Assembly (NCBI RefSeq): GCF_004751985.1
Contig: NZ_CP038492.1
Location: 372,001-436,000 of the forward strand
Direction: 5' to 3'
Source of the DNA: Rhodophyticola sp. CCM32
Lineage (GTDB): Bacteria > Pseudomonadota > Alphaproteobacteria > Rhodobacterales > Rhodobacteraceae
DNA length: 64,000 nt
Positions within the stretch are counted from its first letter, which is position 1. Each line of letters starts with the position of its first letter. Positions 4,456 to 55,443 of this stretch are shown here, one piece after another. The position numbers and the translations under genes are program-made. The notes under the pieces are model-generated. The model saw only the letters and a list, made by a program, of their open reading frames with translations. It did not search any database and was not told where the DNA came from.

Positions 4456-5587
4456 TCACGGTCACCTGGTTGTTTTGCACTTGCGCAATGGCCATGGCCC
4501 GCTGGTTGGTGCCATCGCTTCTGAGGCGGAATACCCCGTTCGCCCCGTTAAAGCCAGAGGATGCAGTCAGATCCGCCGCACCCAGACGCCCCTGACTGGC
4601 GGCGGTCTCGGCCACCGCCCGCATCGCGTCATAGCCGATCGCGGCCAGAACATGGGGCGGGTCCCCGTTCGCGGCGGCATAGCGCGCCTCGAAACCGGCG
4701 GCGGCTGCAGGGTCGGGCAGGGCAAACCAGCCGCCCTGCAGGCCCGACAGTTCCAGGGTCTGCGGCGGTGCATCCCACCGTGCCAGCCCGATCACCCGGG
4801 TCTCTTCCGTATCCAGCCCGTTTTCGGGCAGAAGCTGCGAGAAAAGCGGCAGGGCGCCGGATGCATCGGCGGTCAGGATCAGCGCATTGGTGTCGGTGGA
4901 GCGGATCGCGCTCATCACCTCCGGCAGGGCATCAACCACGCCGTTCTGGGAAAACTCATACCCCACACGTCCGGTGATGGTGACACCGGTACTGAAAACA
5001 GCACGTTCAACGGCTTCGCGCGCGACTTCGCCTGCCAGATTGCGCGCATGCAGGATCAACACCCGGTTGCGCCCCTGAGAGGCCGCATAGCCGACGACCC
5101 TTGCAGCGGTATTGTCATAGGTATGCCCCAGAACAAAGACATTGCCGCCCGCGATCTCGGTGTTGTTGGAAAAGCTGAGCACGTTGATATTGGCGCGGGC
5201 CACGGCCACGCCGACCGCGGCAGCAGCGTCTGAACGCAGCGGCCCGAGGATCACATCGGCCCCCGCGTTCACCGCCTGCTGCGCGACCGAGGCCGCCTGC
5301 GAGGCGCTGGCGGCGGTGTTATAGACGGTCAGGTTGATGTCGACACCCTGCACCTCTGTGAGCGCCATGCGCGCGGCATTTTCCAGGCTGCGCGCCACCA
5401 GATCGTCACCGGCATTGGCCGAGCCATAAGGCAACAGCATCGCCACCTCGATGGTCTGGCCCGAGACCCTGGGGCCGCTTGGCCCGCCTGAGGGGACACC
5501 CATCTGGCAACCCGCCAGAAATCCTGTCAGGGTGAAAACGGAAAGCAGCCGGAACGGCTTGCGGAAGCGACGCAAAGCAGAGATCAT
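4415..5587 (-). CDS. LppC-like penicillin-binding protein activator lipoprotein
   Basis: 390 residues from ATG 5587. The N-terminus is a lipoprotein signal with lipobox LAGC near residue 24. The rest resembles a periplasmic type I binding fold (VAMLLPYGSAN, VILGPLRSDAAAAVG, VLILHARN), as in LpoA/LppC proteins that activate or organise penicillin-binding proteins. The gene is divergent from rsmI with a 93-bp shared promoter region, and its 3' end overlaps glnD. In many Rhodobacteraceae a similar gene is found beside rsmI (from memory, not checked). The exact PBP partner is unknown. Confidence 0.82.
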   Translation of the reverse strand: MISALRRFRKPFRLLSVFTLTGFLAGCQMGVPSGGPSGPRVSGQTIEVAMLLPYGSANAGDDLVARSLENAARMALTEVQGVDINLTVYNTAASASQAASVAQQAVNAGADVILGPLRSDAAAAVGVAVARANINVLSFSNNTEIAGGNVFVLGHTYDNTAARVVGYAASQGRNRVLILHARNLAGEVAREAVERAVFSTGVTITGRVGYEFSQNGVVDALPEVMSAIRSTDTNALILTADASGALPLFSQLLPENGLDTEETRVIGLARWDAPPQTLELSGLQGGWFALPDPAAAAGFEARYAAANGDPPHVLAAIGYDAMRAVAETAASQGRLGAADLTASSGFNGANGVFRLRSDGTNQRAMAIAQVQNNQVTVIDPAPRRLGPAGF

Positions 5588-5680
5588 GAGGGTCCTTGTC
5601 TCCCTTGGGGCGGCAGTCATCAACGCGGGCAAGCCTAGTGCGTTCAGCACGGCAAGTAAACGCCGCCGGAGCCTTTGACG

Positions 5681-6592
5681 ATGCCCGATTTCCCCGCCGG
5701 TCCCGGCCCCGCCGTCTATAACACCGCCGCCAGCCCCGCGCGCCATGTCCGGCTGTCGCCGGGGTTGTATTTTGTGGCGACCCCGATCGGGGCCGCGCGC
5801 GATATCACCCTGCGGGGACTGGATATTCTGCTCAGCGCCGATGTGATCGCGGCCGAAGATACGCGCACGGCCCGCAAGCTGATGGACTTGCATGGGGTGC
5901 CCCTTGGCGACAGGCCGCTTATCGCCTATCACGACCATAACGGACCGGCGCAGCGCCCGCGCCTGCTGGCGGCGCTGGGCGACGGGAAATCGGTGGCCTA
6001 TGTTTCCGAGGCCGGAACGCCGCTGGTCGCCGATCCGGGCTATCAGCTGGGCCGTGCGGCGATTGAAGACGGGGTTTCGGTCATGGCCGCACCGGGACCA
6101 TCGGCAGCACTTGCAGCGCTGACCGTGTCGGGGCTGCCAAGCGACCGGTTTCTTTTTGCAGGGTTCCCGCCCGGCCCGGGCGCGGCGCAAAAACGGTTTC
6201 TGGAAGGCCTGAAAGAGATCGACGCGACGCTTGTGCTTTATGAAAGCCCCAAACGTGTTCACCGATTGTTAGATGTTTTGGATCATGTTCTGGGGGCAGA
6301 TCGGCAGATTGCCCTGTGCCGCGAACTGACCAAACGCTTTGAAGAGGTGATCCGCGGCACCATCACATCCGTGCAGGAGGCGATCGCAGATCGGGTATTG
6401 AAAGGTGAAATCGTGCTGGTGATCGGGCGGGGACAGCCCGTGCAAGCCAGCGCAGAGGAGATTGAGACCGCCTTGCGGGCGGCGCTGAAGACTCTGCGGG
6501 TCAGGGATGCCGCAACCGAAGTTGCGGAGGCGCTGGGTCTGCCGCGGCGCGTGGTCTATCAGGCGGCCCTCAAACTTGGAGATGACGGATGA
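5681..6592 (+). CDS. rsmI: 16S rRNA (cytidine-1402-2'-O)-methyltransferase RsmI
   Basis: 303 residues from ATG 5681; an in-frame TTG six bases upstream is an alternative. It is a tetrapyrrole-methylase-fold protein with the RsmI signatures YFVATPIG, DVIAAEDTR, SEAGTPLVADPGY and PGPSA in the first 130 residues. The family 2'-O-methylates C1402 of 16S rRNA at the P-site. The stop overlaps the yraN start (ATGA), indicating translational coupling. The first 20 residues are Pro/Ala-rich and probably unstructured. Confidence 0.95.
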   Translation: MPDFPAGPGPAVYNTAASPARHVRLSPGLYFVATPIGAARDITLRGLDILLSADVIAAEDTRTARKLMDLHGVPLGDRPLIAYHDHNGPAQRPRLLAALGDGKSVAYVSEAGTPLVADPGYQLGRAAIEDGVSVMAAPGPSAALAALTVSGLPSDRFLFAGFPPGPGAAQKRFLEGLKEIDATLVLYESPKRVHRLLDVLDHVLGADRQIALCRELTKRFEEVIRGTITSVQEAIADRVLKGEIVLVIGRGQPVQASAEEIETALRAALKTLRVRDAATEVAEALGLPRRVVYQAALKLGDDG

Positions 6593-44789: not shown

Positions 44790-45536
44790 ATGAAGGAGGA
44801 GAAGACCACCCCGCTGCGTGAGCGGATGATCGAAGATATGCGCATTCGCGGAATGTCCCCGAAGACGCAGCAAGGCCATATCAGAGCCGTCAGGTATTTT
44901 GCTGAGTTCATCGGGCGCTCGCCCGATACGGCGACGCCGGACGAGTTGCGCGCGTATCAGCTTCACATGACCGATACCGGGGTCTCGACCGGCGTGTTCA
45001 ACGCTAGGATCGTGTCGCTGCGGTTCTTCTTCGGCATGACCTGTGGGCGCGAGGAGATGAAGCGGTACATGCAGTTCCGGCGCAAAGCGAAGAAGCTACC
45101 GGTTGTCTTGAGCGTCGAGGATGTTGGCGATCTGCTGGCGGCGGTTCCTGGACCGGGGCTGTGCATTGAGGTCGACTTCTCACTGCCAGCGGAGCGCGTT
45201 GTGCGCAGCCTGAACCAGATCATTGAATGGCGCGGCCAGCCGCACGCAATTCGCGTCGATAATGGTCCAGAATATATCAGTGGCACGCTCATGACATGGG
45301 CCGAGAAACGCAACATCCGGCTTGAATACATCCAGCCAGGCAAACCACAGCAGAACGGCTACATAGAACGTTACAACCGCACTGTTCGTGGCGAGTGGCT
45401 CGGACAATACATCTTTGAAACGATTGAGGAGGCACAAGATAAGGCGACTGAATGGCTCTGGACTTACAACAACGAGCGACCCAACATGGGTATAGGCGGC
45501 ATAACACCCGCCATGAAACTGAAAACAGCCGCGTGA
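44790..45536 (+). pseudogene. Chimeric ORF: tyrosine-recombinase N-domain fused to the C-terminal part of an IS3 transposase
   Basis: 248 residues in one frame made of two unrelated parts. Residues 1 to about 123 are a SAM-like core-binding domain of an IS91-associated integrase (LRERMIEDMRIRGMSPKTQ, LPVVLSVEDVGDLLAAVPGPGL), without the catalytic domain. From about residue 124 it is an IS3-type OrfB C-terminus (VDNGPEYISG, YIQPGKPQQNGYIERYNR, NNERPNMGIGGITPAMKL), lacking the first catalytic Asp. The fusion is a decayed product, not a working enzyme; expression is unknown. Confidence 0.85.
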
Positions 45537-45577
45537 ATTCTACGGCTGGACCCCACTAAAAATGGGGGGATTACCCC
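45161..45577 (+). mobile_element. Right-end fragment of an IS3-family element (IS407-like group)
   Basis: The right end with ACTAAAAATGGGGGGATTAC. The last 120 bp reappear inverted at 62741-62860. The left end is missing; the boundary lies after CCGGGGCTG, where recombinase coding ends. The 136 bp that follow, to the next repeat, hold no supportable gene. Confidence 0.75.
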
Positions 45578-45713
45578 GCGGCTTCCTCCTTCCGAGATTT
45601 GTCAACGCGGGCCGCACGCCCCGCCGGAAGGAAATGTTGCACCCCGGCCCGCATCGAAAAACCTTCAGGAGACCGGACATTCAGTGCACCGATGCGAACG
45701 GCAGTTTCGTACC

Positions 45714-45894
45714 GTTAGAGCAGGTTGCATTTTATATGAGGCAGCGGTTTTCGAGTCAGTTCAAACGATTTCTGCTTCAAAGCTTTTTGCGTTTTCATTG
45801 AAACAGTTCGCATCAGAATTCGTGTTCGAAATCAGCTACCTGCTGATTGAGAGGCAGTGAATTCTGATTCAATGTTAACGCAAAACGCTATAGG
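45714..45894. repeat. CTATAG-ended palindromic repeat truncating IS30
   Basis: Left end TAGAGCAG...ATATGA matches the left end of the 20.6-kb element; right end AACGCAAAACGCTATAG at 45878-45894. Inner arms GCGTTTT/AAAACGC. Its CTATAG provides the TAG stop that cuts off the IS30 transposase, whose C-terminus is absent. Confidence 0.72.
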
Positions 45895-46773
45895 CGTTCA
45901 ACGATTGCGTTGATCTGCGTCTTTGTCACGGCCTTCATGGATTTTCCTTTCGGGAAGTATTGCCGTAGCAAGCCATTCATATTTTCGTTCGAACCGCGCT
46001 CCCAGGAATGATAGGGATGCGCAAAGAAGCTCTTTGCACCGAGGTCGCGATTGACCTTTTGGTGGTGCGAAAACTCCGGCCCATTATCATAGGTCAGTGT
46101 GTGGACGTGGTCCCGCAAAGGCCCGAGCGTGCGTGAGATGGCTTGCTGTGCCGATTTTGCCCTGCGATCTTTGACCACTACGGCCCTGCATAGGCGGGAT
46201 TTGCGTTCGGTCATTGTGATCAAGGCTGCATCGTTTTTGGCGCCCTATGATCGTATCGACTTCCCAGTCTCCGATACGGGCTCTGGCATCGACGATCCGG
46301 GGGCGCTCGGAGATCCAGACGCGATCCTTGATTTGCCCGCGTCTGTTGAAGACACCGCGCCGTTTACGACGCCTCTTGTGAACCCGCAGATGGGTGTAGA
46401 GCGTGCCGCCTGCACGTTTATCGGCGTAGATGTGCTGATAAATGCGTTCATGGCTCACAGGGGCAAGGCCTTTGAGCCGCATCACACCGTTGATCTGTTC
46501 GGGGCTCCAGTCCTGACGCAGACCAGCCTCGACAATCCGCCATTGCTGCCGTGAAACCCGGCGCCGTCCAAGACGGATACGCCGCGACATGCTGAAGCGT
46601 TGGGCTTGTCTGGCGTGATATCCACGCAGGCCGGCATTGCGCCGAACTTCCCGGCTGATGGTCGACTTGTGACATCCGATCCGGCGCGCAATGCCTGCCT
46701 GGCTCTCCCCCGCTGTCAATGCTGCGTAAATCTCTATACGGTCATCTTCTGTAAGGCGGCGGTAAGCTCGCAT
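45888..46773 (-). pseudogene. IS30-family transposase, frameshifted and C-terminally truncated
   Basis: From ATG 46773: MRAYRRLTEDDRIEIYAALTAG, an HTH (GIARRIGCHKSTISREVRRN) and GDWEVDTIIGR, all IS30 hallmarks with the first catalytic Asp. Reading then shifts frame at a run of five A (plus-strand T at about 46234-46238) and resumes as TMTERKSRLCRAVVVKD, TYDNGPEFSHH and HSWERGSNENMNGLLRQYFPKG. It ends early at VERL where normal members continue about 30 residues, because the repeat supplies TAG. Inactive. Confidence 0.88.
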
Positions 46774-46969
46774 TCTATGCTCCTTAACTTCAGTCGGTGA
46801 GCAGCATAAGAGCATCGCCGCCTTACACTGTCATAAACGTTAAGTTGCGATGGCGCGTTGAATCCAAGGGGTGCTATAGCACCGTCCCAAGGGTCAAACC
46901 ATGTGGCACGCCACATCCTTGGTTTCCTTATCGTGATCCCGTCCTTGTGATGCCCCGCCCCGGAGCGCG

Positions 46970-48403
46970 TTACAAAGCGTCGATATGTGCCATCAATTGC
47001 GCAATCCCGGTATCCGAGATGGCAACCGGGTGAAGCGTCCCGCCCCGCAGTGGTGGAAGAGCTTCCGGGCCGTCATAATCGTAATCGGCCACCGCCACAG
47101 TGTATGTGCAGCCCGCCGCATGTGCGAAACCCATGAAATCGCTCCACCGCAGCACGCCGGATTGCAGCGTGCCCAGTTCGATCACATGGGCCTGCGGATG
47201 CGCATAAAGCAGATTGGTGAAACCTGCCCCGTGATAGGACACCATCACCTCGGCGCGCGCCATCAGGGCGATCTGTTCAAGCGGTGAGAGCTTCTCGAAA
47301 TAGATCACCTCGAAACCACGTTTTTGCAGCCCTGCAATGATCTTCGGTTCCGCTTCGACGGTGCGGGCGCGTTTGCCTTCCACTGCCCGGCCAACCCAGA
47401 AACGTTTGGGCAGATGCGGGAAGTCCTGTCCTTCGATCGCGCGTAGGGCGCGTTCGCGCAGCAGGCGGAGGGACCGGGAATAGGCGTTCATCGACAGGGT
47501 CTTCATGACATCTGCGTTCGGTAATGTCGGGTCCCATTGCAGGCGTCGCCCGATCAGCGGGTCAAGCGGGGGTATTGCCCCCGGGGGGGCCTGAAACAGG
47601 TAATAATCCGGTGTGAAGGCCCCAAGCACCCGGTCATAATGGGCCGGTTCGCCCTGAAACCGCACCCTGCCGGCCAGTTCGGGGAAAAGCGCATCAAGGT
47701 AGCGGGTGATGAACCCCGAGGGTTCTGCGCCCGGGCAATGAATGTTGATCTGCCCGCTGAACCCGTCGATCTCGGCCAGAAGGCAAAGATTGCAGAAGGT
47801 TTCCTTCATGAAATGATAGTAATTATGCAGGTTCCGGGCATCCAGCGCGAAGTCTAGCCCGGTGATATCTCCGCTCCAGATCGGCACTGGTTCGGCATTG
47901 GCCTGCGCCTGTTCGTAATGTTGGCGAAGATCGGCGTTGAAATCGGCCCCTGGGTATTCAGATTTATAACTGCGACCGTATTTCGTCATAAGGCGCCCGC
48001 CGCCCGCCCCGTTCATGAACCAGCGATTGTTGAGCGCCGTAAAGGTGCGGATGAACCGGGCATCTTCAAAAAGCGCGGGCCGGGTGTTTAACTCAATGAC
48101 ACTGTCGAAATGCCTATGGCGGGCGATACGGCGAAGCTCGGTCTCCCACCTTGCGCGGATTTCAGGGGTCTCGGACAGCGTAAGGCTGGTGATCGTGCCG
48201 CTGCGCGCCTTGTGCCAGGCGGGGCCGGGATCAGATAGCAGATGCAACCCCGGGTGAAGGCCGGGGGTGTAAAGCGCATCGCTGGGTGGGGTGGAGAAAG
48301 TAGGTGTGTCAGGCATCGGCGGTAAAGCAGTTTGCAACTTCAACAGGTTATGGCATGGGATGGGCAGAGGGGGAATGCCTGTCATCACATGGCGGTTGTT
48401 CAT
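46970..48403 (-). CDS. Glycosyltransferase family 61 (DUF563) protein
   Basis: Up to 477 residues; ATG 48316 would give 448 and is also reasonable as no strong ribosome-binding site precedes either. The C-terminal half has FWVGRAVEGKRAR, KLSPLEQIALMARAEVMVSYHGAGFTNLLYAHP and IELG, typical of GT61/DUF563 enzymes, related to O-linked and cell-surface glycan transferases. Middle region HNYYHFMKETFCNL is also shared with this group. Substrate unknown. It is an accessory gene between IS30 and a MITE-like element. Confidence 0.85.
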   Translation of the reverse strand: MNNRHVMTGIPPLPIPCHNLLKLQTALPPMPDTPTFSTPPSDALYTPGLHPGLHLLSDPGPAWHKARSGTITSLTLSETPEIRARWETELRRIARHRHFDSVIELNTRPALFEDARFIRTFTALNNRWFMNGAGGGRLMTKYGRSYKSEYPGADFNADLRQHYEQAQANAEPVPIWSGDITGLDFALDARNLHNYYHFMKETFCNLCLLAEIDGFSGQINIHCPGAEPSGFITRYLDALFPELAGRVRFQGEPAHYDRVLGAFTPDYYLFQAPPGAIPPLDPLIGRRLQWDPTLPNADVMKTLSMNAYSRSLRLLRERALRAIEGQDFPHLPKRFWVGRAVEGKRARTVEAEPKIIAGLQKRGFEVIYFEKLSPLEQIALMARAEVMVSYHGAGFTNLLYAHPQAHVIELGTLQSGVLRWSDFMGFAHAAGCTYTVAVADYDYDGPEALPPLRGGTLHPVAISDTGIAQLMAHIDAL

Positions 48404-48430
48404 CTTTAGATCGTTTAAGATGGTATGTCG

Positions 48431-48699
48431 TTAGGGTCAGGCCCCCTTAAATCCATACCGTCAGCACCGATTTCACGACATATCAGTGGTTTGCGGCGCG
48501 CCGGCCATAGGTGTTCTACGGTCAAGCGGCGCACGCCGCTGAGATGATGTGAAACCGGTGCCCTTCGGGTTTGGCGGATGTCCCGCGTGAGCATCGTTGC
48601 AGGCCTTTGAAATAGAACCACTATTCCGGCAGCCCTGCGCCTTGTCACGCGAAAAATCTGCCAAACTGATGGCATGGATTTAATGGGTCCTGACCCTAA
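48431..48699. mobile_element. MITE-like element with 34-bp inverted ends
   Basis: Ends TTAGGGTCAGG-CCCCCTTAAATCCAT (from 48431) and its complement ending CCTGACCCTAA at 48699; 30 of 34 positions agree. Length 269 bp with no transposase reading frame. TTA/TAA at the tips fits the target preference of IS5-like (IS427 group) transposases, so a non-autonomous IS5 derivative is likely. The rest of this gene-free stretch (48404-48954) shows only a doubtful 36-codon plus-strand ORF at 48832-48942. Confidence 0.75.
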
Positions 48700-48954
48700 C
48701 TGGCGCTGCGCGCTATTTGGAAGACCGCGGTTGACCGTCTGTGGGACGTTGCGCATCTTTGACACGATGCAACGGTTTTTCTGAATCCGAACAACATGTC
48801 GCGTCACGCAATATCGGCCCAAACGTCAAGCATGTTTGACCCAGACCGGACCCGCCTTGCTTTTCGCGCCAAGGTCGGCGGTGCGGACTTTTCCGACATT
48901 CGCTGCGTCTTCGCCAACGGCTGCTTCAAGGAGGAGGTCTAGTTTATGTAAGCA

Positions 48955-49506
48955 CTATGCAGTCTCCCTGACGCTGGACAGAGTTGTTTCAAATGCAGAA
49001 TTTGCCGGTCCACTTGCCAAGGCAGCCCAGTGCTTCGAGCTTTCGAGAAACACCATCACATCCGCTGTGGGCGCTATGTCATGCTTTTCCCAACACCAAT
49101 CGACCTGGTCGATTCGATCAGCCACGGCAATGTCGGCAATGCTTCTGATATCTTCCTGAGACAACGATATGCGGCGGCCATCGTACGCGAACTCGCCTGC
49201 TTCAACTGGATAACCCGCTTCCGACCGCTCTAAGCAATAGTATCCAATAATCAAGGCCTTTGCCCGCTTGGGTACCACAGTTTCGTCCATCGTAGATAGG
49301 TCAAGGATCTCGTTATCATAGCCACTCTTGGGATCAATGACGGAATGCATCAACCCCGCAATCTTCGTTTCTTCGTCGCAACCCCAATTGTCCAGATACT
49401 GGTAGGTCGATGCCAAGTGCCCCACGTGGCTGCGCTCATACAAGAAGGCCTTATCAAATCCGCCCGCCTTCAAAATGGCGACACATGGCTTATACATATT
49501 TGACAC
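48955..49506 (-). CDS. DUF6817/HD-like domain protein of the peptide cassette
   Basis: 183 residues from GTG 49506, which has AGGAGG nine bases upstream; an ATG at 49524 overlapping the MFS stop is the alternative. Residues 25-56 carry an HD-like metal pattern: SHVGHLASTYQYLDNWGC then GLMHSV. The segment fits DUF6817 as I remember it. Later residues (IRSIADIAVADRIDQVDW) are helical. Function unknown. It is the last gene of the minus-strand run behind the HExxH enzyme and MFS protein, with AT-rich composition unlike the core genome. Confidence 0.75.
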   Translation of the reverse strand: MSNMYKPCVAILKAGGFDKAFLYERSHVGHLASTYQYLDNWGCDEETKIAGLMHSVIDPKSGYDNEILDLSTMDETVVPKRAKALIIGYYCLERSEAGYPVEAGEFAYDGRRISLSQEDIRSIADIAVADRIDQVDWCWEKHDIAPTADVMVFLESSKHWAALASGPANSAFETTLSSVRETA

Positions 49507-49520
49507 TTTGTCTAACCTCC

Positions 49521-50729
49521 TCATAAGAGCTTGGTGTAGTAGCCAAGCAAGTCGTCCTTTGGCACCCGGATGAACTCTCGAAATGAAGTGCTCAAGGCCA
49601 AATAGGCAGTACAAAGCAGGATAATGCTGCCAGCTACTAGCAACACACCGTTCAGTGACTGGCCGAATACTAAAATTGATGAAACCAGTAAGCCAACAGG
49701 AACACCTGCTTGAATGATGAAGAAGTGAGAGGTCTGAAAAAAGCCCCTCTCTTTCTCCGGCAATGCCATAGAGCGCCGCGCCTCCACGGTGGTGTTGTTT
49801 GTCACGATAGCCGCGCCCACGAAGAATGATATCACGGCCCAGGCGACAGGCTGGAGTAAAATCGCGTAAGCGAACATAGAAGCTCCCAGTACAGCAAGGC
49901 TCCCCAAGACAATCACGAGTTCACTAACGCGCTCAGAAACAAACCGATGTAAAAATAATGCGCTGAAGACTACACCAGCAGTAACGCTGGCTTCTAGCAG
50001 CCCCAAGTAAACCGGTGAAACATCAAACACTGTCTTTGCCGCGAATGGAATGACGAACGTTGAGAATGATACTGTTATGGCATTAATGGCAAGTGAGATT
50101 AGTGACCACTCGATTTCAAACCTGATCCTCGAAAAACGTTTGAAGCTCTTGAAGGGGCTTTCGAAAGCCGATCGAATTTGGCGAGGTGAAGGATAGGCCA
50201 CACCAGAGGAGTACCAGCAGACGATTGCTGCAATGATCGTGATAATCAGCAGCACGATGGCGCTATTCAGAACTTCATAACCTAAAAAACCTACTGTCAA
50301 TCCGCTTACGCGAGCAACAGATGAAATTAGAAATGAGTAGCGATAAGCGTTAGGTGCTTCGTCAGTATCAACAAGTTCGGGGACAAGTGCATTGACGCTT
50401 GGCGTAAAGTAACTTTCCACACTTCCGAAAGCGCCTGCAGCAACTAAAAGAAGAATTGGCTGCTGCCATTCAAACCCGATGGCGAACAGTGCGAACGCTG
50501 AGCAAGAAACCGTCATAAGTTGGACTATCAACCGTCTCGGTCCGACTTTGTCAGGCAGATTAGAAAAAAAGCAACCGAAGCAAGTCTTGCATAAATAAAA
50601 GACTATCGGCAGTGCGGCAGCTAGCCAGGTTTGCGCTTCAAGTGCAACCCATATGGATAAGGCCAAGGCCAGCTTTCCCAGGGTAAGGAAAAAAACCTCA
50701 AGTCCTTTCAGCCGAAGCAATCTCTTCAT
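49521..50729 (-). CDS. MFS transporter, putative peptide/product exporter
   Basis: 402 residues, about 12 membrane helices. MFS loop features include SNLPDKVGPRRLIVQ between helices 2 and 3 and SFFVGAAIVTNNTTVEARRS in the second half. ATG 50729 overlaps the stop of the HExxH gene (ATGA). By position it is probably the exporter or immunity pump of the peptide product, but this is inferred. The reading frame is AT-rich with codon use unlike sdh and suc genes. Confidence 0.85.
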   Translation of the reverse strand: MKRLLRLKGLEVFFLTLGKLALALSIWVALEAQTWLAAALPIVFYLCKTCFGCFFSNLPDKVGPRRLIVQLMTVSCSAFALFAIGFEWQQPILLLVAAGAFGSVESYFTPSVNALVPELVDTDEAPNAYRYSFLISSVARVSGLTVGFLGYEVLNSAIVLLIITIIAAIVCWYSSGVAYPSPRQIRSAFESPFKSFKRFSRIRFEIEWSLISLAINAITVSFSTFVIPFAAKTVFDVSPVYLGLLEASVTAGVVFSALFLHRFVSERVSELVIVLGSLAVLGASMFAYAILLQPVAWAVISFFVGAAIVTNNTTVEARRSMALPEKERGFFQTSHFFIIQAGVPVGLLVSSILVFGQSLNGVLLVAGSIILLCTAYLALSTSFREFIRVPKDDLLGYYTKLL

Positions 50730-51658
50730 GCAAGTAAGTCGTTTCTTATCACCACTCTTTCGATGTCTTCAAAGATCAACCGCCCTGTTTCAGTGAATTC
50801 TGCGTTCTTCGAAACTGTTTTGTGCGTCGCAATGATCAGTTTCTTTAACTCTACTAGTCGATCAGCGACGTCTTCACCGGCGTTGGTTAGTTCAGACCTT
50901 GCAAGATCGAGTGCAATGTAGCTACGCACCATAACGAAAAGGGCATGAAACAGGCCAAACATCGGTCTCAAATCATCTCGAAGAGGAGCCTTGAACCGTT
51001 CGGTATCCTTATTCAGAACAAGTGAATCCTGTCCATTAAATGTGAATAGTACGAGATGGCTAAGTTCGTGAACAATATGTTCGATAAAGTAAGCCAGTGT
51101 TCCCTCTGGATCCGCATATATTGTCACGAGACCAAATGCGGTGTAACTGCTTCCTGATCTGACGTAATAATCCTGCGTTCTTCCAGTCAAGATAATTTCA
51201 TCTATTAGAAGCGCCATTTCGTTTGAATACTTTGGAGCAGTTTTTCGTATCACGTCAATTGCTTCAAGAACTAGCACTTTAGAGATGTCGAACTGCTGTT
51301 CGGTAACCTTGCCAATCTTAACACCACTCTCGTCGCGACTCAAAATCTCCAACAGTAGCTCATTTTGCAGAGTCTCTTCATCAGGGTCAAACCTAGAAAT
51401 GCGAACACTTCGGAAATTTGTGCTACTGGTAAAGTCATTGATGCGAGCCAGCAGTTGCTTTGCCTCCTCAAATTCATCCGCCTCAACCTTCCCGACCGAT
51501 AAATTATATAGGGCAAAGTGAGGCCAGCAAAATCGATGGACCAGCCCCTCCAATCCCAATGCAACACTCAGATAAGTCAACGATTCGTTGTAAGGTTTCT
51601 TAATCCGCTGAAGCACTTTATTGGGGTCTGAAGAACCTTCAGTTAACTCAATATCCAT
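50726..51658 (-). CDS. HExxH-motif putative peptide-modifying enzyme (TIGR04267-like, putative aKG-dependent peptide beta-hydroxylase)
   Basis: 310 residues from ATG 51658, preceded by GGAGG. HELSH at residues 197-201 is followed by FKAPLRDDLRPMFGLFHALF at 222-241. This spacing and the aPwRxDpRPxxGLxhaxf wording are those of the 'HEXXH motif' family seen in ribosomal-peptide clusters, some of which are described as 2-oxoglutarate/iron peptide beta-hydroxylases. His197, His201 and His238 are likely metal ligands (inferred). No signal peptide, so it is cytosolic. The gene lies 52 bp after the 28-codon peptide gene, with a hairpin between. A zinc peptidase is the alternative. Confidence 0.82.
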   Translation of the reverse strand: MDIELTEGSSDPNKVLQRIKKPYNESLTYLSVALGLEGLVHRFCWPHFALYNLSVGKVEADEFEEAKQLLARINDFTSSTNFRSVRISRFDPDEETLQNELLLEILSRDESGVKIGKVTEQQFDISKVLVLEAIDVIRKTAPKYSNEMALLIDEIILTGRTQDYYVRSGSSYTAFGLVTIYADPEGTLAYFIEHIVHELSHLVLFTFNGQDSLVLNKDTERFKAPLRDDLRPMFGLFHALFVMVRSYIALDLARSELTNAGEDVADRLVELKKLIIATHKTVSKNAEFTETGRLIFEDIERVVIRNDLLA

Positions 51659-51681
51659 TGATGCCTCCAAATACTGTTGGC

Positions 51682-51704
51682 GGGTGCCCGTTCACCGGGC
51701 ACCC
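51682..51704 (-). promoter_or_regulatory. Hairpin between precursor and modifying-enzyme genes
   Basis: Perfect nine-bp stem GGGTGCCCG/CGGGCACCC with a five-base loop, seven bases after the peptide stop and 24 bases before the enzyme start. No U-run follows on the minus strand. Its place suits partial attenuation or mRNA protection so that more precursor than enzyme is made. Confidence 0.7.
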
Positions 51705-51710
51705 TTGTAG

Positions 51711-51797
51711 TCAGTCCTCGTCGCGCTTCGAGTTGACGGTCCATTCAGCGGACGCTTGTGCTTTGCTCTTCAGGAGTTTTGATTTGTCGATAGTCAT
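51711..51797 (-). CDS. Putative RiPP precursor peptide, 28 aa
   Basis: ATG 51797 to TGA 51711, with an excellent AAAGGAG ribosome-binding site seven bases upstream. The peptide starts MTIDKSKLLKSKAQ, a Lys-rich amphipathic leader-like part, and ends AEWTVNSKRDED, a polar tail with Trp19, Asn22 and acidic residues that could be hydroxylation targets. It has no Cys. It is the first gene of the run with the HExxH enzyme, MFS protein and DUF6817 protein. Short length alone would not support it; the ribosome-binding site, hairpin and neighbours do. Confidence 0.72.
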   Translation of the reverse strand: MTIDKSKLLKSKAQASAEWTVNSKRDED

Positions 51798-52066
51798 GGT
51801 CTTCTCCTTTGTTGAATTGTGCTGTTTGCACGCAATTTAGGGTTGTTTGATTCGCACATCAAAGCAACTCTGAGCATATAACGAGAACTGGTTTCGGCGA
51901 AGTAACGCCCAGATCGGTTTCTCGAGCGTGGGTAAACATACTGACACGACCATAATGATCAATTTATTGGCACCAAATAATCGGCTCGTCGACTGACAAT
52001 GCACAAACCTTTGGCAAAACTCCGTTTGGTTTGTCAGGTTTTTTGGCCGTACTTAAAGAAGCTGAT
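51798..52066. other. Upstream region of the peptide cassette
   Basis: About 270 AT-rich bases between the peptide gene and the IS110 end. It should hold the cassette promoter. On the minus strand TTGCTT (about 51892-51897) is a possible -35, but no convincing -10 follows at normal spacing. No gene seen. Confidence 0.4.
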
Positions 52067-52069
52067 GGG

Positions 52070-53410
52070 GTGGATGGCTCCTGCTCCAACCGGCGTCGCA
52101 ATGCGCCATAATGCAGGTGTCTAAATCTGCTTTGAGAGGAGCCACCCCATGCAAGTTACCACAATCGGCGTTGACCTGGCCAAGAACGTTTTCCAAGTCC
52201 ATGGTATCGCAGAGAACGACGATGTGTTGTTCAACAAGCCCCTGAGACGGGCGCAGTTTCTGCCGTTCTTTGCTAAATTAGAACCCTGCCTGATCGGCAT
52301 GGAGTCTTGCAGCAGCGCCCATCATTGGGCCCGCGAGTTGACGGCCTTGGGCCACGAGGTGCGTTTGATCCCGCCGATGTATGTGAAGCCCTACGTCAAG
52401 CGCGGGAAGTCAGACGCGATCGACGCTGAGGCAATCTGTGAAGCAGTGACACGACCCACGATGCGCTTTGTTGCGATCAAAACGGTTGAGCAACAAGCCT
52501 TGCTATCGCTTCATCGGGCTCGCGACCTTTTGGTCCGTCAAAGGACGCAACTGATCAACGGCCTACGTGGCCTTGTTGCCGAGTTTGGCGTTTACATTCC
52601 GAGAGGGCTGGCTCGGGTGATTGGCTTCGCCGAAAACATCACCCTTGGTGAAGTGCTCGACTTGCCGGACATCGCCAACGAGGTGATCCGCAACCTGTCA
52701 GATCAGCTCATGGCTCTGCATAAGCGGGTCCGATGGTATGAAGAGCGCCTCAAGCAAGTGGCCAAAGAAGATGCGCGTGTCCGTTTGCTGCGCACGATAC
52801 CCGGCGTCGGCGTGGTGACGGCCTCTGCGATCATCGCCAGCATCGGCGACGGGCATCAGTTCCGTAATGGCCGGGAGTTCGCCGCCTGGCTGGGCTTGAC
52901 GCCTGCGAATAAATCCAGCGGAGGAAAGGAAAAGCTGGGGCGGATCACCAAGATGGGCGATCAATATTTGCGATCGTTGCTTGTCGTCGGCATGACATCA
53001 CTGGTCCGACAAACACGGTCCCACCCCGAACGCGCCAGCAAGTGGCTGACGTCACTGCTCGAACGCAAACCTGCGCGTGTTGCAACCGTCGCCATGGCCA
53101 ACAAGACCGCCCGGATCGTCTGGGCTGTCCTGACCCGCGATGAACCCTACAGCCCCCGTGCGGCAGCCTGAGAAGAAAGGAACATCGAGTTAGCAAGACC
53201 CGCGAGATGATGGTGCATAAGTCAGCCGCCAAAACCAGGACACCCCGCCGAATGTCCCGGGCGTCATAGCCCGCTAAGCTGTAAGGGACTTGGTTTGCGG
53301 AACCCATCAGGGCCAGCGGTCACAACCGCGCAAACAGGCCGGACACATGACTGCTTCTGACAAATGCACAAATCAGATCAAAAAGGACTTGCTATGCAGG
53401 AGCCATCCAC
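52070..53410 (+). mobile_element. IS110-family (IS1111 group) insertion sequence
   Basis: A 15-bp inverted pair GTGGATGGCTCCTGC (52070-52084) and its complement (53396-53410) brackets the transposase gene. Subterminal inverted repeats are typical of the IS1111 group. About 240 bp follow the gene inside the element without another ORF, where the guide (bridge) RNA region of this group may lie on either side. Confidence 0.82.
52149..53171 (+). CDS. IS110/IS1111 transposase (DEDD)
   Basis: 340 residues, complete. N-terminal RuvC-like DEDD domain with Asp9 (GVDLAKNVFQVH), IGMESCSSAHHWAREL and KSDAIDAEAICEAV; C-terminal transposase_20 domain with LRTIPGVGVVTASAIIASIGD, EFAAWLGLTPANKSSGGK and the conserved Ser region. 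No disruption seen, so it is probably active. Confidence 0.95.
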   Translation: MQVTTIGVDLAKNVFQVHGIAENDDVLFNKPLRRAQFLPFFAKLEPCLIGMESCSSAHHWARELTALGHEVRLIPPMYVKPYVKRGKSDAIDAEAICEAVTRPTMRFVAIKTVEQQALLSLHRARDLLVRQRTQLINGLRGLVAEFGVYIPRGLARVIGFAENITLGEVLDLPDIANEVIRNLSDQLMALHKRVRWYEERLKQVAKEDARVRLLRTIPGVGVVTASAIIASIGDGHQFRNGREFAAWLGLTPANKSSGGKEKLGRITKMGDQYLRSLLVVGMTSLVRQTRSHPERASKWLTSLLERKPARVATVAMANKTARIVWAVLTRDEPYSPRAAA

Positions 53411-53447
53411 ACAGGACATTCGCTGCGTTGCGCTCGAACGTCCGGTT

Positions 53448-54616
53448 CTAGTCACCTGGAACTGTAATTCGTATCATTGTTTGAACTGAGCTTCAGGAGG
53501 TGATGCGATGGTTGGACGGGTTGCGGATGCGGTGGTGCTGAGCGATGAAGAGCGCCGCTTTCTCGAAGGTCAGGTTCGGCAGCACAAGACGCCCCGGTCT
53601 TTGTCGGATCGCTGTCGGATGATCCTGTTGTGCGCCGAGGGGCTGCCCAGCAAGGAAGTGGCTGCACAGCTTGGCGTGCACGAGCACACGGTGGGCAAAT
53701 GGCGCAGGCGTTTTGCACAGGATCGGATCGAAGGCCTCACCGACGAATACCGCCCCGGTCGCCCGCGCACGGTGTCGGATGAACAGGTGGCCGAGGTGAT
53801 CGAGCGCACGCTGAACACCATGCCAAAGGACGCAACCCACTGGTCGATCCGCTCAATGGCTGCCGCGACGGGGCTGTCTCACACAACAATTCGGCGGATT
53901 TGGAACGCATTCGGGCTACAGCCACACCGCAGCGAGACTTTCAAACTCTCAACCGATCCGCTGTTCGTGGACAAGGTGCAGGATATTGTCGGGTTGTACC
54001 TGTCGCCGCCGAACCGGGCTATCGTGTTGTGCGTAGACGAGAAATCCCAGATTCAAGCGCTGGATCGGGAACAGCCGGTCCTGCCCATGGCGCCCGGCGT
54101 GGCTGAGCGGAGAACTCACACTTACATCCGCCACGGTACGACCTCGCTCTTTGCCGCTCTGGATATTGCCACCGGTGCCGTGATCGGAAAGTGCTACAAA
54201 CGGCATCGTGCAACAGAGTTTCCGGACTTTCTCAAAAAGATCGACCGGCACGTGCCCGCAGGCCCCGACGTGCATATCGTCATGGACAATTATGCCACCC
54301 ACAAGACGCCGAGGGTCAAGGCTTGGCTGGCGCGCCGCCCGCATTGGCACGTCCACTTCACGCCTACGTCAGCGTCATGGATCAACCAGGTGGACCGCTG
54401 GTTCGCCGAATTGACCCGCAAGCAGCTACAGCGGGGCGTGCACCGATCAACCGTAGAGTTGGAGGCCGACATTGTGGCATTCATCGAGGCCCACAACGAG
54501 AACCCAACGCCGTACAAGTGGGTCAAATCCGCAGACGAAATCCTCGCATCCGTCAAACGGTTCTGCCAGCAAACTCAGCAAACCTTATGCCGCGAACTTT
54601 AGATACAGGTGACTAG
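53448..54616 (+). mobile_element. IS630-family insertion sequence
   Basis: Perfect 11-bp inverted ends CTAGTCACCTG (53448-53458) and CAGGTGACTAG (54606-54616) around a single transposase gene. The TA in the tips fits IS630 target duplication. Its right tip was later the target of the adjoining IS5 element. Confidence 0.88.
53508..54602 (+). CDS. IS630 transposase
   Basis: 364 residues, intact. N-terminal helix-turn-helix ([24 protein letters not shown]), a linker, then the DDE domain with [26 protein letters not shown] and [19 protein letters not shown]. Complete and potentially active. Confidence 0.95.
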
Positions 54617-55443
54617 GGCGTAGACCTATAAATGGCGATGTGCTTCAAGATGTGAAATCTGGGAGGTTTCATGTCGTCGAATTTCCGGCTCACCGAAGAA
54701 CAGTTCAATAAAATCAGTCCTTTGCTGCCAAACAAGCCCCGAGGCGTGCCACGGGTGGATGATCGTCGTGTCTTGTCCGGGATCATTTTCTGTATCCAGC
54801 GAGGCTATCGCTGGTCCGATGTGCCGCCCGAATATGGCCCGGCAAAGACGCTCTACAACCGCTGGAAACGTTGGTCCGAGGCAGGCGTTTTCGAACGTGT
54901 CTTTGACGCGCTGGCGCGCGAGACGGCCGACCTGTCGACACTCATGATCGATGCGAGCCATGTCAAAACGCATCGGATCGCAGCGAACGGTGTCAAAAAA
55001 ACAGCCCGGGCGGACGGAGCATCGGCAAGACCAAAGGCGGGCTGAATTCGAAGCTGCATCTGGTTTGCGACGGTGGCGGTTGCCCGGTTCACTTGGGGCT
55101 GACTGCGGGAAATCGGGCCGATATTTCCCAAGCACGCCAGTGCCTTGAACCCTATGTCGCCAAAGGCTGCACCGTCATCGCGGACCGTGGCTATGACGCC
55201 AATCACCTGCGTGACTGGCTGACCAAGGCAGAGGCAACAGCCTGCATCCCGCCCCGCAAAAACCGCAAGGTGCAGTTTGAATATGACGCAGATCTCTACA
55301 AAACCCGCAATATCGTAGAGCGCATGTTCAATCGCCTGAAAGACTGGCGACAACTCAGCCTGCGCACATTCCGATGCCCCAACACCTTCCTCGCGGCCGC
55401 CCACATCGCCGCTACAGTGATTTGGTTCTTATGAGTCTACGCC
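54617..55443 (+). mobile_element. IS5-family (IS427 group) insertion sequence inserted in the IS630 tip
   Basis: Inverted ends GGCGTAGAC (54617) and GTCTACGCC (to 55443), flanked on both sides by CTAG (54613-54616 and 55444-55447), a four-base target duplication. Removing the element restores the sequence GACTAGGTGATTGG at the IS630 edge. About 827 bp. Confidence 0.85.
54671..55434 (+). CDS. IS5/IS427 transposase produced by programmed -1 frameshift
   Basis: OrfA (54671-55045) opens LTEEQFNKISPLLPNKPRG and runs to DASHVKTHRIAANG. At A7 (54995-55001) a -1 shift leads into OrfB with KGGLNSKLHLV, VIADRGYDANHLR and RNIVERMFNRLKDWRQL. The joined DDE enzyme is complete. The slippery A7 is the known IS427 arrangement, also present in the second IS5 at 61.6-62.4 kb. 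Confidence 0.88.

Follow-up and report, generated by a model that had tools for sequence, protein, structure and literature searches.

What does a gene of only 28 codons do directly ahead of an HExxH enzyme gene, in a stretch of DNA whose composition is foreign to its surroundings? The question is raised by a 64-kb segment of Rhodophyticola sp. CCM32 (contig NZ_CP038492.1; the whole stretch of 64,000 nucleotides (nt) is called the window below), in which the minus strand between 48955 and 51797 carries four consecutive genes, for a 28-amino-acid (aa) peptide, an HExxH enzyme, a major facilitator superfamily (MFS) transporter and a DUF6817/HD-like protein. We consider it likely, with some room for doubt, that this cassette is a minimal pathway of the RiPP type (ribosomally synthesized and post-translationally modified peptides), in which the 28-aa peptide would be the substrate of a single aKG-HExxH enzyme and the product would be exported by the MFS protein. 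Among aKG-HExxH RiPP pathways it would probably represent a minimal variant that is new and is carried horizontally. An earlier reading of the letters alone (the original prediction) had described the layout, and this description was borne out: all four codirectional open reading frames (ORFs) lie where claimed, the junctions are tight (an ATGA overlap of the HExxH and MFS genes at 50726–50729, and a DUF6817/HD-like start 14 nt past the MFS stop), the cassette is AT-rich (guanine-plus-cytosine (GC) content 0.476, vs. 0.596 for the whole window), and none of the four genes was recognized as coding for a protease, a radical SAM enzyme or a PqqD-like protein. The best starts are ATG 51797 (peptide), ATG 51658 (enzyme), ATG 50729 (MFS) and GTG 49506 (DUF6817/HD-like), and three of the four genes have a clear Shine-Dalgarno site, the exception being the MFS gene, which starts within the ATGA overlap.

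The enzyme gene (50726–51658, minus strand) encodes 310 aa from ATG 51658, a start that is preceded by GGAGG and is better than TTG 51670. Its product scores 74.9 bits against TIGR04267 (‘aKG-HExxH-type peptide beta-hydroxylase’), over the cut-off of 40, which upholds the proposed kinship with iron/2-oxoglutarate peptide hydroxylases, and the signature first noticed, HELSH followed by FKAPLRDDLRPM, is present. With residues counted from TTG 51670, an alignment of 33 sequences (the two L057 enzymes omitted) shows H201, E202 and H205 of the HExxH motif, G180, N220 and R235 to be invariant and P229, R231, P236, G239 and H242, among others, to be nearly so; the PLRxDxRPM motif is conserved as well. 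The closest solved sequences are the radical SAM-HExxH protein 22nu/22ob (E 3e-6) and ChlH 8s5f (E 0.0014), and the position of H242 is occupied by His in ChlH and by Gln in 22nu. Characterized aKG-HExxH relatives include iron/2-oxoglutarate hydroxylases of Asp/His, of Gln (with oxidative backbone cleavage) and of Phe (PMC12636437), and PesO hydroxylates Pro in a ribosomal peptide (PMC13060819). Because published members hydroxylate ribosomal peptides, the enzyme should not by default be read as an ordinary zinc peptidase, and family membership makes the window enzyme most likely an iron/2-oxoglutarate beta-hydroxylase. Cleavage is nevertheless within the repertoire of the family, as PflC and PosC take off an ARMD tail oxidatively and PflC is proteolytic without leader (PMC12636437). 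With no protease gene recognized in the cassette, the window enzyme might likewise mainly cleave the peptide or another protein, oxidatively or by zinc-type hydrolysis, leaving a product that is shortened or amidated and not hydroxylated. We find this unlikely, given that an ARMD tail is lacking from the window peptide, that the five short peptides compared below have no C-terminal motif in common, and that hydroxylation is the usual reaction of the characterized members considered here (PMC12636437, PMC13060819).

The peptide gene (51711–51797, minus strand) reads MTIDKSKLLKSKAQASAEWTVNSKRDED, and the strong AAAGGAG site attributed to it lies six bases 5′ of the ATG. Its leader-like N-terminus is MTIDKSKLLKSK and its C-terminal half, AQASAEWTVNSKRDED, is a putative core; the exact core named in the original prediction, AEWTVNSKRDED, is a candidate. 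The arrangement that marks RiPPs, a ribosomal precursor gene (here a putative one) beside that of a modifying enzyme, is found in the cassette and again in the relatives. Adjacency alone is weak evidence, since a short Shine-Dalgarno-preceded ATG ORF that overlaps no other chosen ORF lies just upstream of four of the 47 greedily chosen window ORFs with a length of 150 aa or more, the enzyme included; the ranking of the leader, given below, is stronger.

A finding that would have spoken against a precursor, as originally put, is the lack of any conserved short ORF beside orthologous HExxH genes. Such ORFs were looked for, and short leader ORFs were found, in distant bacteria too, so that the peptide as substrate withstands this test. 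The matching peptides beside the enzyme in such distant bacteria hint at a family of bacterial peptide products that has so far been little known. A search of 394 genomes of the window’s own family gave 21 HExxH matches that exceeded the cut-off, spread over 18 genomes, and at 16 of these 21 (the window being counted throughout) a short ORF whose leader is KLL-like lies just upstream; at a 17th, L056, a KLL-like short ORF stands ∼2.3 kb downstream of the HExxH gene, and L080, an own-family genome that was added by a later search, also has a KLL-like leader ORF. The leader consensus is (I/L)D-x-(S/T)KLL-G-F/Y-R, with KML, RLM, KFL and KLF as variants, and it is followed by K-x-G-K type repeats in many of the own-family short ORFs. 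Leader ORFs beyond the family were found at L060, L076, L077 and L097–L100, of which L076, L077 and L097–L100 belong to another class of the same phylum. The leader-first arrangement is right, since the N-terminus is the part of the peptide conserved across relatives, whose precursors are 32–79 aa long, many with repeated AKxGxK-like cores. At L039, an array of five short KLL-leader peptide genes precedes one HExxH gene. L101, truncated by the contig end just upstream of its HExxH gene, stands outside the leader count, and L103 yielded no HExxH frame in a regular-expression search; the precursor survey left out L079, L081, L035, the sub-cut-off matches L021–L024, and G955.

A leader profile was built from 20 leaders at 14 loci, the window, Pantoea, Xenorhabdus, G884 and Photobacterium loci being excluded from training. 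The training leaders had first been chosen by a KLL-like or K-x-G rule, so the profile’s own shape is due to selection and the test is the held-out ranking. Among 457 Shine-Dalgarno-preceded short ORFs from the window, L036, L037, L038 and L076, the three highest scores went to those that neighbor an HExxH gene in G884 (10.4 bits), in the window (6.1) and in Xenorhabdus (5.2). In a second set of 1981 ORFs from 43 loci, with each training locus omitted in turn, the first 29 ranks all went to KLL-type ORFs from HExxH loci: 27 lie within 450–1500 nt before the HExxH codon, and two are further members of the L039 array. An ORF that looks unrelated came 30th, and the window and Xenorhabdus peptides came 31st and 32nd. 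The 450–1500 nt interval thus holds 29 of the top 32 ORFs, vs. 90 of the 1981 overall. No Pfam or NCBIfam model matched the 28-aa peptide, which also has no poly-Gln or ARMD tail; no NCBIfam model reached its cut-off for any of 12 peptides, nor did any Pfam model for the window peptide or four others. A weak match of the Pantoea peptide to the TQQ RaS-RiPP leader family (17.1 bits, cut-off 50) was dismissed. Profile A2 found G884 itself as sole match in 198 genomes of the G884 family.

Four further minimal cassettes with a peptide, a stem-loop, an HExxH gene and an MFS gene were identified, on plasmids of Pantoea, Xenorhabdus and Photobacterium and in genome G884. The Pantoea agglomerans plasmid NZ_CP068441 encodes MKKVESSKLLKIKSPLSGWSFSK, an HExxH enzyme and an MFS protein, with a VOC gene ∼450 nt further; the Xenorhabdus plasmid AP028979 encodes MLKKFDTQKIIGLKNQSTCLTIMTIGTK, HExxH, a CMD protein and MFS; the Photobacterium plasmid NZ_CP073579 encodes MKKLDEKKVFSLRKKSTPCLKNVSN, MFS and HExxH, with no adjacent further partner; and G884 encodes MKLDMSKLIVSQSALSLTAMVALSSVNKSIGE, HExxH, an EamA transporter and MFS. 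The DNA of the window cassette had no match in plasmids, and that of the Pantoea cassette none in E. coli. In all five cassettes, window included, a stem-loop lies 3′ of the peptide gene. That of the window (51682–51704, minus strand), between the peptide and enzyme genes, is an inverted repeat with a perfect 9-bp stem (−21.5 kcal/mol, z −3.96); it has no T-run and was rated not terminator-like by the scan. Those of Pantoea, Xenorhabdus and G884 occupy the corresponding position. The Photobacterium stem-loop has 7 bp, was missed by the repeat search (none of at least 8 bp) and was equalled by one of 200 shuffles. The stem-loop may set high precursor vs. low enzyme expression. The order of short ORF, stem-loop and structural gene in five cassettes, with a T-run in Pantoea, G884 and Photobacterium, would also suit a translational or transcriptional attenuator, the short ORF then being a regulatory leader peptide and not a substrate. 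This we regard as very improbable: what different lineages conserve is the protein sequence of the leader, and the 32–79 aa peptides of the relatives, many with their repeated cores and with five gene copies at L039, are unlike attenuators.

Enzyme phylogeny bears on the origin of the cassette. In a tree built from 39 enzymes, with L080, L103 and both L057 enzymes omitted, the window sequence groups with G884 (99/95), then weakly with Pantoea (88/18), and not with own-family enzymes; the foreign GC content together with this placement suggests that the cassette was acquired horizontally. The whole 3.86 Mb genome has a single TIGR04267 match, and no Rfam match was obtained within 48400–52200. 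Transposase-like ORFs, some apparently broken, flank the cassette on both sides (44790–46815 and 52149–55434; by eye only).

Several findings weigh against the minimal RiPP pathway. The leader ORF is missing just upstream of five of the 21 own-family matches (L041, L051, L056 and two in L057), and at L058, L059, L061, L063, L078 and L102 no ORF near the HExxH gene is among the best 60 of the 1981 profile rows. The window peptide, taken alone, has just its 6.1 bits (E 0.3 in 457 ORFs); the Pantoea peptide ranked 17th of 457 and outside the best 60 of 1981, its likeness to the leader (SKLLKxK...W) being seen by eye only, and the Photobacterium peptide ranked 42nd of 1981. The leader motif written as a degenerate DNA pattern, which was composed after the peptide was seen, occurs twice in the 3.86 Mb genome (this peptide and a stretch reading MDVRKL(F/L)) vs. 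three times for the same pattern reversed as a control, so that its mere presence is not unusual and adds little. The enzyme has no close orthologue (best identity 28% in the tree alignment, 31% by BLAST), and the window and G884 are both long branches, which drew a warning from the tree program, so that their joining may be false. A scan of 51650–52150 gave neither a sigma-70-type promoter nor a terminator, the lack of a promoter being the adverse point. Also to be counted is the absence of a protease gene, which is not disqualifying because the characterized pfl/pos clusters have none either (PMC12636437). The cores differ between cassettes, and hence no modified residue can be named; the window’s single Trp, common only to the Pantoea peptide, would be a guess. 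Finally, no relatives of the enzyme were found in six other genomes of the same genus, and a sister Xenorhabdus copy (NZ_CP147735) has lost the peptide start codon. These last two points, with the foreign GC content and the transposase-like ORFs on both sides, would also suit a cassette stranded as a non-functional remnant in an insertion-sequence-rich island. We judge this very improbable for the window, where the four frames and the catalytic motifs are intact, the ATGA overlap has been preserved and three of the genes have good ribosome sites.

In the minimal RiPP pathway that we favor, the peptide would be overproduced thanks to its strong ribosome site, followed by a stem-loop that may damp read-through. 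The aKG-HExxH enzyme would dock on the ID-x-SKLL leader and oxidize at least one residue of the C-terminal half; the likeliest reaction is Fe(II)/2-oxoglutarate beta-hydroxylation, possibly accompanied by oxidative cleavage of the backbone. Either a housekeeping protease or the enzyme would trim the product, and the MFS transporter would export it. This transporter (49521–50729, minus strand; Pfam MFS_1, 56.1 bits), the presumed exporter, is related to the cassette MFS proteins of Xenorhabdus (26% over 178 aa) and Photobacterium (21% over 357 aa), and those of Pantoea and G884 did not match it at E 0.01. As to the fourth protein, originally called a DUF6817 protein, its gene is there (48955–49506, minus strand; 183 aa from GTG 49506, which GAGGAGG precedes) and its family score falls short (PF20680, 24.5 bits, below the gathering cut-off of 25.2), the Pfam HD_4 match being sub-threshold too. 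Apart from itself, it has one weak match (E 8e-4) in 198 own-family genomes, and no relatives were found in plasmids. This HD-like protein probably plays an accessory part, and it looks like an optional passenger because the other minimal cassettes carry a different further partner or none.

The surroundings of other HExxH genes are varied. A protein of ∼290–330 aa with an F-(T/S/C)-D-(F/L)-(D/E)-R-like motif was seen by eye near those of L043, L045, L048, L060, L097, L098, L100, L101 and L102; the L048 copy (5016–5987, minus strand) had no Pfam or NCBIfam match at E 0.01, and this FTDxDR protein is possibly a second peptide-modifying enzyme. AMP-binding ligase-like genes follow the HExxH genes of L053–L056 (by Pfam for L054 and L055, by eye for L053 and L056), that of L055 having carrier and thioesterase domains (Pfam); one L054 precursor starts MKIDLKKLLSLKVPSAGAAKVG, and the L055 precursor has RLFSKRG repeats. 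Other short peptides are present at L058, L061, L062 and L102, a 97-aa peptide with PAGxLDTTxAxPQTGK repeats preceding the HExxH gene at L062, and L057 has two tandem HExxH genes with a 68-aa peptide of a different type nearby upstream. On the Streptomyces hirsutus plasmid NZ_CP109265 (L083), the HExxH gene is clustered with annotated ThiF-family, MFS, TldD-related and lantibiotic dehydratase proteins. A pattern scan of contigs matched 35 stretches and returned two loci: L003 was rejected as a chance match within an unrelated ORF of 1233 aa, and L002, from the archaeal Natrialba aegyptia, is genuine, its HExxH gene overlapping a YcaO-like gene (by eye), with an MFS-like gene nearby and an acidic ∼41-aa peptide upstream. 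None of 70 pattern matches in viral contigs was a relative, and phage records gave no match.

How does the cassette compare with known systems? Microcin C, with its 7-aa MccA peptide and its MFS exporter MccC, likewise combines a tiny gene-encoded peptide with MFS export, and its modifying enzyme is unrelated to that of the window cassette. The pfl/pos clusters of Pseudomonas resemble the window cassette in having a stand-alone aKG-HExxH enzyme (PflC/PosC) near a precursor gene, transporters and no protease gene; they differ by a precursor with a nitrile-hydratase-like leader and a poly-Gln/ARMD tail, and by an MNIO-nitroreductase and a GNAT protein (PMC12636437), whereas the window cassette has a 28-aa peptide with an ID-x-SKLL leader, and one enzyme. 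With no such tail on its peptide and no MNIO among its four genes, the cassette is not of the pfl/pos type. ChlBH, a radical SAM/aKG-HExxH system (ChlH 8s5f; 22nu), shares the HExxH family of the window enzyme by sequence; it acts on a preinstalled cyclophane (PMC12636437), whereas no radical SAM gene was recognized in the window cassette. The nitrilobacillin pes cluster similarly uses a member of the family, the Pro hydroxylase PesO, on a ribosomal peptide, and has in addition an MNIO, a partner protein, a nitrile synthetase and M16 peptidases (PMC13060819). The terms HEXXH, major facilitator and precursor peptide all occur in a paper on biphenomycin-like peptides (PMC12257519). Titles and the beginnings of abstracts listed in full-text searches, which mostly did not reach subscription papers, describe neither KLL-leader precursors nor a minimal HExxH-plus-MFS cassette; the leader letters had a single match, in an irrelevant paper.

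Further counterparts, for which no name was found, are the pairs of KLL-leader peptide and HExxH enzyme described above (L039, L042–L050, L052–L055, L077 and L097–L100, among others), which have, like the window cassette, a short upstream peptide and an HExxH enzyme, and which differ from it by mostly longer peptides, many with AKxGxK-like repeats, and often by an FTDxDR protein nearby; inspection by eye showed no MFS gene beside them, Pfam having been run on few of the neighbors. We see about an even chance that the window cassette belongs, as a mobile and pared-down branch, to a broad, unnamed RiPP class whose (I/L)D-x-(S/T)KLL(G-F)-like leader is read by aKG-HExxH enzymes, the longer members having AKxGxK-like cores and often the FTDxDR protein, and the minimal members (a 23–32 aa peptide, one enzyme and one MFS pump) being the smallest self-contained form, travelling on plasmids or islands. 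Because many genomes of the phylum have longer repeat-core precursors with this leader, it would define a class whose precursors, among the peptides tried, reached the cut-off of no Pfam or NCBIfam model. If the minimal pathway is right, its leader is a handle for finding many more precursors, and a 28-aa peptide with one enzyme would stand among the simplest peptide-modifying pathways known to us.

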